Shown piece by piece: positions 9,688-11,888 of a stretch of DNA of 64,000 bases; within the stretch, counting starts at the first letter, position 1; each line of letters opens with the position of its first letter. A program made the position numbers and the translations under genes. The notes beneath the pieces were generated by a model. It searched no databases, had not been told where the DNA came from, and saw only the letters and a program-made list of their open reading frames with translations. Source of the stretch: Natronorubrum thiooxidans (GTDB lineage: Archaea > Halobacteriota > Halobacteria > Halobacteriales > Natrialbaceae); NCBI RefSeq assembly GCF_900156475.1, contig NZ_FTNR01000010.1, forward strand, positions 62,001 to 126,000, given 5' to 3'.

Positions 9688-9703
9688 TTTAGGCGGTACG
9701 AAA
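9688..9703. promoter_or_regulatory. Degenerate iron box upstream of dpsA
   Basis: TTTAGG-CGGT-ACGAAA matches the left half of the TTTAGG-N4-CCTAAA boxes near 11 kb perfectly and the right half at four of six positions. It lies about 56-71 bp before the dpsA ATG and about 20 bp upstream of its TATA-like element. That position fits activation rather than repression. The weak right half keeps confidence low. Confidence 0.35.
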
Positions 9704-9758: not shown

Positions 9759-10304
9759 ATGAGTACCCAAAAGACCGTTCGTCAATCCGCCGGGACCGTC
9801 GAAGAGAACGCACTGCGCCTCGAGCAAGAAAAGGCCGAACAGATCATCGATGCGCTGAACACGGACCTTGCGGACGCCTACGTCCTCTACCACCAACTCC
9901 ACAAACACCACTGGAACGTCGAGGGCGCGGAGTTCCTCGAGATTCACGTATTCCTCCAGGAGGTCTACGAGGACGTCGAGGACGCCGCAGACGACCTCGC
10001 GGAGCGACTTCAGGCGCTCGGCGGCGTTCCCCACGCCAGCATGACGACGCTCGCCGAGAACGCAACGGTCGAGCCCGAAGACGAGGACGTCTACGACGTT
10101 CGAACGTCGCTTGCACACGACCTCGAGATGATGGGCGACGTTATCGAGAGCTACCGCAACCACATCGAACTCGCAGACAGCCTCGGCGACTACGCCACGG
10201 GCGAGATGCTGCGCGAGCAACTCGAGACGATCGAAGAACACGCCCACCACATCGAACACTACCTCGAAGACGACACGCTCGTCCTCGAGTCCGCAACGAA
10301 CTAA
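9759..10304 (+). CDS. dpsA: Dps-family ferritin (DpsA)
   Basis: A 181-residue DNA-protecting ferritin-like protein that oxidises ferrous iron and stores it in a 12-mer. The ferroxidase helix LHKHHWNVEGAEFLEIHVFLQ (near residues 46-66) contains the Dps HWNVEG signature, followed by an acidic helix EVYEDVEDAADDLAERLQALGG. The ATG at 9759 (MSTQKTVRQSAGT) is favoured by the TATA-like box 29-35 bp upstream and by similarity to other haloarchaeal DpsA N-termini. Halobacterium DpsA is known to respond to iron and oxidative stress. A degenerate iron box sits upstream here, and a DtxR-type regulator gene lies about 0.7 kb away. Confidence 0.93.
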   Translation: MSTQKTVRQSAGTVEENALRLEQEKAEQIIDALNTDLADAYVLYHQLHKHHWNVEGAEFLEIHVFLQEVYEDVEDAADDLAERLQALGGVPHASMTTLAENATVEPEDEDVYDVRTSLAHDLEMMGDVIESYRNHIELADSLGDYATGEMLREQLETIEEHAHHIEHYLEDDTLVLESATN

Positions 10305-10323: not shown

Positions 10324-10611
10324 TCATTCGACGTCTGGCGCTTTTTCGTCCGTCCGCCCCGGAAGCTCGAGTTCGATCTCGAGTTCCGGCTCGCCGACCC
10401 CGTCGAAGTCGATCTCGAGTTCCACGGGTTCGCCGAAGGCGAAGGGAAGCTCCCACTCGTCGGTGGAAATCGTGAGTTCGTCGTCGTCGCGAAGCTGTTC
10501 GCCCAGGTTGATCAGAAACGTTCCCGCTTCGGCCGCGTCGAGGCGATACTCCTGTTCGAACTTGCGCCCCGTGCGGATCGTCGTTCGGTCGTCGTCTGTT
10601 TCAGGTGTCAT
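10324..10611 (-). CDS. amphi-Trp domain-containing protein
   Basis: A 95-residue acidic protein of the haloarchaeal amphi-Trp domain type. The pattern is FEQEYRLDAAEAGTFLINLGEQLRDDDELTISTDEWELPFAFGEPVELEIDF, with alternating hydrophobic and acidic strands. The molecular function of the domain is unknown. The ATG at 10611 (MTPETDDDRTT) is chosen because the long open extension to 10794 is low-complexity and antisense-like. The 3' end faces that of dpsA with 19 bp between stops. A second, longer protein with the same domain occurs at 26995-27657. Confidence 0.82.
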   Translation of the reverse strand: MTPETDDDRTTIRTGRKFEQEYRLDAAEAGTFLINLGEQLRDDDELTISTDEWELPFAFGEPVELEIDFDGVGEPELEIELELPGRTDEKAPDVE

Positions 10612-10826
10612 GGTTCGTCTGTGGTTCGTCTGTGCTGGTAGTCTGGTCTGCAAACGGGGCCCACGATAAGTCCATCCCGTCGGTGTTCCCGACTGGCCGA
10701 ACCGAGTTCTTGGGGCTGCGTTTACAGACTGGTCGTTCGGGACCGGTGCTCGAGTCCGGTCTGACATCGAGCTCGAAGTGCAACTAGCGATCACCAGCCG
10801 CTATCGTAGCCACTGAAAGTCAATGC

Positions 10827-10861
10827 ACACCGCATCGCACGACAGTTGCGCGATGCGGTGT
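10827..10861. repeat. Perfect 12-bp inverted repeat (hairpin)
   Basis: ACACCGCATCGC and GCGATGCGGTGT form a perfect 12-bp stem around an 11-base loop. It lies 29 bp from the iron box and about 125 bp past the stop of the DtxR-family gene on the minus strand. It could be a structured small RNA, a processed 3' end or a protein-binding dyad. Intrinsic hairpin terminators are not the usual archaeal mechanism. Confidence 0.6.
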
Positions 10862-10890
10862 AAATCGTTTCAGTTGTTACTACGGAACGG

Positions 10891-10906
10891 TTTAGGCTAC
10901 CCTAAA
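10891..10906. promoter_or_regulatory. DtxR/Idr-type iron box
   Basis: TTTAGG-CTAC-CCTAAA is a perfect 6-4-6 inverted repeat, identical in architecture to the two boxes at 11839-11888. It resembles sites described for haloarchaeal iron-dependent repressors. It lies 80 bp beyond the 3' end of the DtxR-family gene and about 280 bp before the amphi-Trp start, so it has no obvious protein-coding target. Confidence 0.65.
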
Positions 10907-10985: not shown

Positions 10986-11375
10986 CTACTGCGTCGACTC
11001 GTCGGCTCTCGACGAACTGCTCGGCGCTAGAAGGGTCGTTTCGAGCCGTGTCACGACGGCCGGACTCACGGTGCCGACCACGGCTGCGGCTTCCCGGCGA
11101 TGGTCGTCGATCTCGAGCACTTCGTCGAAAAACCGACAGATTGTCTCGTAGCTGTCGGACAGTTCGCTGGCCCGGTCGCGGCCTGCTGTCGTCAACCGAA
11201 CCCCCGCATATGGTTCGTGGTCGACGAGTCCCCGCGCCTCGAGACGTTGGACCATCTCCGTCGTCGCGGCGGGTGAGCGACCGATCGAGTCCGCAATTCG
11301 ACCGGTCGACACCGGCTCGCCCGCAGTCTCTGCCAGTTCGTAGACCGTGAGCAGATAGTGGTTCACTCTCGACAT
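10986..11375 (-). CDS. Short DtxR-family transcriptional regulator
   Basis: 129 residues from the ATG at 11375 (MSRVNHYLLTVYELAE). The N-terminal winged helix is typical of DtxR/MntR/SirR: HYLLTVYELAETAGEPVSTG, then RIADSIGRSPAATTEMVQRL, ARGLVDHEPYAGVRLTTAGR. The dimerisation segment ETICRFFDEVLEIDDHRREAAAVVGTVSP lines up with the DtxR segment that normally reads EACRLEHVLSP. The Cys, Glu and His metal ligands appear replaced by Ala, Val and Gly. There is no C-terminal FeoA/SH3 domain. Nearby iron boxes and dpsA suggest a role in iron control, but it may be an apo or non-metal-sensing regulator. Confidence 0.85.
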   Translation of the reverse strand: MSRVNHYLLTVYELAETAGEPVSTGRIADSIGRSPAATTEMVQRLEARGLVDHEPYAGVRLTTAGRDRASELSDSYETICRFFDEVLEIDDHRREAAAVVGTVSPAVVTRLETTLLAPSSSSRADESTQ

Positions 11376-11563
11376 ACCGTTACCACTCGCCGACGGGCAG
11401 CCGTTTCGCGACGTGACCTCGAGTAGACGTCGCGTTTGACGTGTCACTCACTCCTGACCACCGAGTTCCTCGTGGTTCTCGTCTGTCTCATCAGTGGCCG
11501 GTGTGTCGAACAGGCGGACGTAGACCGCTGCCCAGAGCCGCGCTCGCTTTCTCCGTGGCCCGG

Positions 11564-11839
11564 TCATCGTCCTGTTGTCGTCGGTGCGACGTGTTCGGTC
11601 GACGTTTCACAGATGATCATGTCGTAATAGGGAACCTGCGGATCGTACTGACGGAGCACAGCACGGTACTGCTCCGTCGCATGGGTGGCTGCTCGCGCGG
11701 TCGAACGGCTCTCGAAGTACAGTCCCGCGGCGGGAACGGGACGCTCGCCCGTTCGTCCACAGATCAGGTAGTACGTTCCTGCGTCGCTTGCAAGCGACTC
11801 GATGTCGTGGCGGATATCGCCAAGCGTTTCCCCCATCAT
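11564..11839 (-). CDS. Small haloarchaeal protein of unknown function under iron boxes
   Basis: 91 residues starting MMGETLGDIRHDIESLASDA. It contains YYLICGRTGERPVPAAGLYF, SRSTARAATHATEQYRAVLRQYDPQVPYYDMIICE and a short tail. It resembles small cytosolic proteins of a haloarchaeal domain of unknown function (I believe DUF7552). No catalytic motif is evident. Two TTTAGG-N4-CCTAAA boxes bracket its TATA-like region, and one abuts the start codon, so it looks like a tightly repressed, iron-responsive gene. The start may be either of two consecutive ATGs at 11839 and 11836. Confidence 0.78.
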   Translation of the reverse strand: MMGETLGDIRHDIESLASDAGTYYLICGRTGERPVPAAGLYFESRSTARAATHATEQYRAVLRQYDPQVPYYDMIICETSTEHVAPTTTGR

Positions 11840-11854
11840 TTAGGTAACCCTAAA
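11839..11854. promoter_or_regulatory. DtxR/Idr-type iron box overlapping a start codon
   Basis: TTTAGG-TAAC-CCTAAA is a perfect 6-4-6 palindrome whose first base is the last base of the minus-strand start codon of the 91-residue protein. A bound repressor would cover the transcription and translation start. Confidence 0.75.
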
Positions 11855-11872: not shown

Positions 11873-11888
11873 TTTAGGCTCCCCTAAA
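11873..11888. promoter_or_regulatory. Second iron box of the same promoter
   Basis: TTTAGG-CTCC-CCTAAA is a perfect 6-4-6 palindrome, 34 bp centre-to-centre from the first. An AT-rich TATA-like stretch (minus strand AATACTTAA) lies between the two boxes. The pair therefore brackets the promoter of the 91-residue gene, which is a strong repression architecture. Confidence 0.75.

Follow-up and report, generated by a model that had tools for sequence, protein, structure and literature searches.

DtxR proteins are textbook metal-activated repressors, and the locus described here raises the question of what such a regulator does when the residues that should hold the metal are gone. The gene, idr, lies on the minus strand at 10986..11375 of the window (the whole 64,000-nt stretch of Natronorubrum thiooxidans DNA that was analysed) and encodes a DtxR-fold winged-helix regulator of 129 amino acids plus stop; the position of its ATG start is identical in the orthologues of genomes G101 and G105. 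The N-terminal winged helix of the DtxR DNA-binding domain (PF01325) was recognised with 52.6 bits (cut-off 26), and the second domain, responsible for metal binding and dimerisation (PF02742), gave a weak match (19 bits, cut-off 27, E 0.0015). Within an alignment of relatives (A1) both domains matched 30 of 30 members, PF02742 at E ≤0.01. An AlphaFold2 model of Idr, built from 30 relatives, had a mean pLDDT of 87.5, and MntR, DtxR and IdeR chains led the Foldseek search performed with it. The model aligned with apo-MntR 2hyg over 123 residues (VIA Z 16.1, rmsd 2.7) and with DtxR 1ddn_A over 114 residues (VIA Z 15.5). As modelled, Idr matches domains 1-2 of MntR/DtxR, with the fold match extending over residues 1-124. 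No FeoA domain (PF04023) was matched in Idr, whose chain stops about 10 residues past the second domain, while PF04023 is present in the SirR-type paralogue of the same genome (L001). MntR-type members are likewise not known to have a C-terminal SH3-like/FeoA domain. The original prediction of a short DtxR-type protein without a FeoA-like domain thus describes the gene product correctly.

To assess the two metal sites, primary and ancillary, we used the ligand numbering of DtxR. Idr holds none of the seven canonical ligands (M/D10, H79, E83, H98, C/D/E102, E105, and H106): Met10 is replaced by His6, His79 by Tyr76, Glu83 by Cys80, His98 by Arg93, Cys102 by Ala97, Glu105 by Val100, and His106 by Gly101. 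Codons at 11061..11093 (minus strand) specify the helix in which DtxR has Cys102, Glu105, and His106. By translation and alignment, residues 95-105 read EAAAVVGTVSP in place of the EACRLEH-type motif, exactly as had been noticed before, with Ala, Val, and Gly at the three ligand equivalents. In the structural register, residue 1 of the Idr model pairs with DtxR residue 5. A misalignment displacing the ligands was ruled out, as the sequence and structural alignments gave the same register. By its predicted structure Idr has the two-domain fold in common with bacterial MntR, DtxR, and IdeR (VIA Z 14-16, 18-31% identity in structural alignments), but is without all the metal ligands that these proteins hold.

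That the regulator had lost its metal ligands, as originally proposed, is true of this gene, but the loss is a trait of the family and not particular to it. Among 85 distinct haloarchaeal relatives, 83 keep 0/7 ligands and two keep 1/7. In the comparison groups the values were 7/7 for SirR-type proteins (8/8 sequences), 2/7 for TroR-type proteins (nine sequences), and 7/7 for bacterial chains (four). The former ligand positions hold other residues that are themselves conserved (in DtxR numbering Tyr79 95%, Gly106 96%, Met102 83%, Ser83 82%, and Ala105 74%; Tyr, Gly, Ala, Cys, and Val, respectively, in this protein), which argues for repacking and not for decay. The dN/dS ratio was 0.12-0.34 over six orthologue pairs, and idr is under purifying selection; with the frame open in orthologues as well, a pseudogene or a sequencing error was ruled out.

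The emptied pocket could have been given over to another signal: a small molecule, heme, redox state, or a soft metal bound through Met102 and Glu98. Conservation of the former ligand positions as specific residues, and not at random, would suit such a sensor; Met102 occurs in 70/85 and Glu98 in 67/85 distinct relatives, and 57/85 have two possible donor residues among the seven ligand positions. A different soft-metal site may therefore exist in relatives with both Glu98 and Met102. Yet this gene and its nearest orthologues have Arg and Ala there, and we found no conserved alternative Cys/His/Asp/Glu cluster in the former metal pocket across the 85 distinct relatives. The earlier suggestion that the protein may sense something other than Fe2+/Mn2+ gained no positive support from these data, and we consider a new signal in the pocket unlikely. 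It is more doubtful still that Idr binds iron by other side chains or by the N-terminal His6 together with Cys80. These two residues do stand at the equivalents of M10 and E83, but most relatives have Gln, Arg, or Glu at position 10 and Ser at position 83, and Cys83 was seen in only three distinct relatives.

To establish how widely the family occurs, we scanned genome contigs. The alignment-based scan gave 65 named idr loci, in genera including Natronorubrum, Natrinema, Halorubrum, Haloferax, and Haloarcula, whereas the single-sequence scan gave none. In the host's family 34 of 125 genomes have idr (matches of at least 86.7 bits, four without loci confirmed by the class-wide scan), and in the class-wide sample 134 of 391 (match of at least 139 bits; the in-between G163, with 120.6 bits, and G400, with 115.1 bits and partial, were left out). 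For most genomes without idr, the best match of the Idr search was the TroR type, as judged by score. The alignment used for the tree comprised 118 sequences, 107 of them distinct, and retained a truncated relative (L107, 85 aa); of a further 27 matches, L110 and L133 (a short SirR-like fragment) were omitted, together with eight duplicated loci already included. In the maximum-likelihood tree the Idr group, the TroR type, and the SirR type were each set apart by a branch, with support of 92/86, 98/95, and 91/98, respectively; the tree rests on few columns and has long branches, and the placement of its root was assumed.

The SirR-type paralogue L001 has two Pfam DtxR domains as in the Idr family, plus FeoA, and its type has the full set of ligands. 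The TroR-type paralogue, which is near-universal (L002:1504-1938 (+) in this genome), resembles Idr in having a DtxR fold by family assignment and no FeoA. It keeps Glu83 and Glu105 only, with Arg or Lys at position 102, whereas Idr keeps none of the ligands. In addition, all nine TroR-type sequences carry a Cys-rich tail, CPDCFD...C, a candidate for iron sensing away from the classical site.

Comparison with known genomes indicated that the gene is the orthologue of Haloferax volcanii Idr (HVO_0538) by synteny with acnA and dps, and Idr is therefore a member of an already named group. In PMC11349517, Idr HVO_0538 is named as one of three DtxR proteins, and acnA is given as HVO_0541 in PMC3828320. 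The ligand-less gene lies between aconitase (acnA) and dps in 7/7 named Haloferax loci, and the aconitase-idr-dps spacing agrees with the distance suggested by the numbers 0538 and 0541, which identifies Idr by its neighbourhood. H. denitrificans stood in for H. volcanii here, so the match to HVO_0538 rests on neighbourhood. The SirR-type and TroR-type genes of H. denitrificans lie 39 kb apart on one contig, as genes numbered 0819 and 0863 would. Of two primers, both for HVO_0863 in PMC6801745, one matched 19/20 bases beside the H. denitrificans TroR-type gene, and the other gave no match; the assignment of the TroR type to HVO_0863 rests on this one primer and on the naming in PMC11349517.

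In the window, idr was described as lying in the middle of three iron boxes and near dpsA. Three exact TTTAGG-N4-CCTAAA boxes were indeed found, against 0 in 100 shuffles, along with a dps/DpsA ferritin-like gene at 9759..10304 on the plus strand (PF00210, 115.4 bits), which has an imperfect box with two mismatches in front of it (9688..9703). The description can be refined for the upstream pair. The boxes at 11839..11854, overlapping the ATG of a DUF7552 gene, and at 11873..11888, 34 bp from the former, belong to the promoter of that gene (11564..11839, minus strand, 91 aa; PF24422, 120.3 bits), and an AT-rich TATA-like stretch can be made out by eye between them. The DUF7552 gene heads an apparent operon that continues with a 39-aa ORF (11448..11567, minus strand), which overlaps the DUF7552 stop and is also found in G101, and ends with idr. 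The third exact box (10891..10906) lies 80 bp downstream of the idr stop; in relatives a DUF7331-like ORF of 54-59 aa comes after it. In the window it is followed by the decayed remnant of a small DUF7331-like gene (10612..10890, minus strand), its frame broken by stops, and by a gene for an amphi-Trp domain protein (10324..10611, minus strand; TIGR04354, 50.7 bits, cut-off 31). Of the 31 relatives with a box just after the idr stop, 30 have a small ORF (49-59 aa) that begins no more than 25 nt from the box, and 28 of these 30 small ORFs match the N-T/N/S-D/E-G/A-W motif of the DUF7331-like protein, of which the window has the decayed copy. Decay of this neighbour, loss of the ligands, and a second domain below the Pfam cut-off might all suggest that idr is itself a functionless, decaying relic of a DtxR paralogue. 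We regard this as very improbable, as the dN/dS ratio with the two closest orthologues is 0.12 and 0.22 and dps lies within 1.5 kb of idr in 40/65 named loci.

A strong hairpin was also observed at about 10827-10861, with the iron box on one side and the decayed small gene on the other (RNA fold z -6.4). Visual inspection of the G101 and G105 sequences showed none, so it was taken as local. No Rfam family was found there; three Rfam matches (E up to 1), all of them to microRNA models and short of the gathering score, were taken as chance, and a structured RNA was rejected.

Next, we asked what the boxes mark beyond the window. The whole genome has nine exact boxes, and 14 with at most one mismatch. 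Outside the window, exact boxes lie at genes for two Peripla_BP_2 lipoproteins, a FecCD permease, a solute-binding protein, and ABC ATPases; the TTTAGG-N4-CCTAAA box marks iron-uptake genes elsewhere in the genome. Sites with one mismatch lie at a third Peripla_BP_2 lipoprotein gene and at a second dps (L155:592-1137 (+)), where they form a near-perfect pair and a further small gene of the DUF7331-like kind (55 aa) is also present. Across the 65 named idr loci we counted 126 boxes, against 0 for the reversed control pattern. At least one box was present in 54/65 loci, within 300 bp upstream of idr in 25/65, within 200 bp after its stop in 31/65, and in either place in 42/65; no exact box was found within the sequence examined at 11/65 loci, seven of them in Haloarcula. 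Close box pairs in the named loci are spaced 36 bp start to start in 23 of 23 cases, about three and a half helical turns, and the pair in the window 34 bp. As judged by eye, many upstream boxes are preceded by an AT-rich TATA-like stretch and followed after a few bases by a start codon, a position at which a repressor would prevent a leaderless mRNA from being transcribed. In Natrinema the start codon after the box precedes the assigned idr start by about 145 bp, and a leader ORF or a longer Idr protein is possible there.

The box is present in 125/125 genomes of the host's family, 91 of which have no idr. Since it is universal in the family, mostly in the company of no idr gene, the box taken alone speaks for the TroR type rather than for Idr, and from this pattern its main reader is probably the TroR type. 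Genomes of the family with idr were richer in boxes (mean 14.4, n=34) than those without (6.7, n=91), in a comparison that counted genomes irrespective of descent and made a flat subtraction of 3 for boxes of the idr locus. Taken genus by genus, a clear excess was confined to g1 (p 0.013) and g16 (p 0.022).

Mean identity over the recognition helix (residues 37-48) is 47% between Idr and TroR and 33% between Idr and SirR. The helix of Idr resembles the S-P-A-x-x-x-E-M helix of the TroR type in Ser37, Pro38, Ala39, Glu43, and Met44, and is unlike T-P-P-T-V-T-S-M of the SirR type. As it resembles TroR's helix more than SirR's, the same boxes are a likely target. We favour, with a probability of roughly one half, a reading in which Idr is metal-blind: iron would set the amount of Idr, through a box-binding paralogue of the TroR type, and not its activity, and Idr would act on the same boxes. 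On this view Idr has kept the two domains and the winged helix of the DtxR fold but would have abandoned the binding of metal. It would dimerise and bind DNA without metal, as we infer from the repacking of the emptied sites with small and hydrophobic residues. In H. volcanii, TroR reportedly represses idr. When iron is plentiful, the TroR type would occupy the box between the TATA box and the start codon and keep idr low; when iron is scarce, Idr would be made. Blind to metal, it would then occupy TTTAGG boxes, where it would co-repress dps and the uptake genes or brake them by feedback, or do so as a heterodimer with TroR. The earlier suggestion was of a metal-independent partner of other Idr proteins; by synteny the gene is the Idr orthologue itself, and it may partner the TroR-type paralogue, which would be compatible with their similar recognition helices.

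A stronger form of such a partnership would leave Idr with no operator role of its own. Idr would dimerise with the TroR type through the second domain and weaken or retarget it, as a dominant-negative subunit or antirepressor whose amount reports iron starvation. Idr and TroR are the two non-canonical groups and fall together if the tree is rooted among canonical sequences, a root that was assumed, and idr itself carries an iron box, both of which speak for this alternative. However, the DNA-recognition helix of Idr is strongly kept (Ser37 in 82/85, Pro38 in 83/85, and Glu43 in 82/85), which would be needless in a non-binding subunit, and second-domain identity between the Idr and TroR types is just 29%. 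We judge a pure antirepressor improbable.

As to where the iron would be sensed, we put forward a tentative proposal. The TroR type could sense iron through its Cys-rich tail, while Arg102 would supply a built-in cation where the metal normally sits; Idr could be its fully metal-blind, abundance-coded partner on the same boxes. If true, the tasks of sensing and of reading DNA would be divided between two sister paralogues, and iron control in haloarchaea would lie outside the classical metal site.

In the literature searched, we did not find a statement of class-wide ligand absence, of the conserved repacking, or of a non-canonical TroR type with a Cys-rich tail; the main regulator papers lay outside this search. 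A search for a metal-independent DtxR family gave no match, and one for DtxR proteins with non-conserved metal-binding residues matched on a manganese exporter only, but neither outcome shows that these findings are new to the literature. Here a branch found across the class has discarded the ligands yet retained its fold, its DNA-reading helix, and its position within the iron regulon, and it offers a natural test of the role of the metal in the DtxR fold. The Idr family also cautions against annotating such genes as metal-dependent regulators. The question of which haloarchaeal DtxR paralogue senses iron is reduced to a short list of candidate sites, namely the classical one for SirR and the Cys-rich tail for the TroR type, with no such site for Idr.

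As a separate observation, Haloferax denitrificans encodes a fourth, very divergent DtxR-like protein (L135:8917-9384 (+)) with 0/7 ligands and a Cys-containing tail. Its gene lies a few kb from an apparent copper nitrite reductase gene, as judged from the translation.
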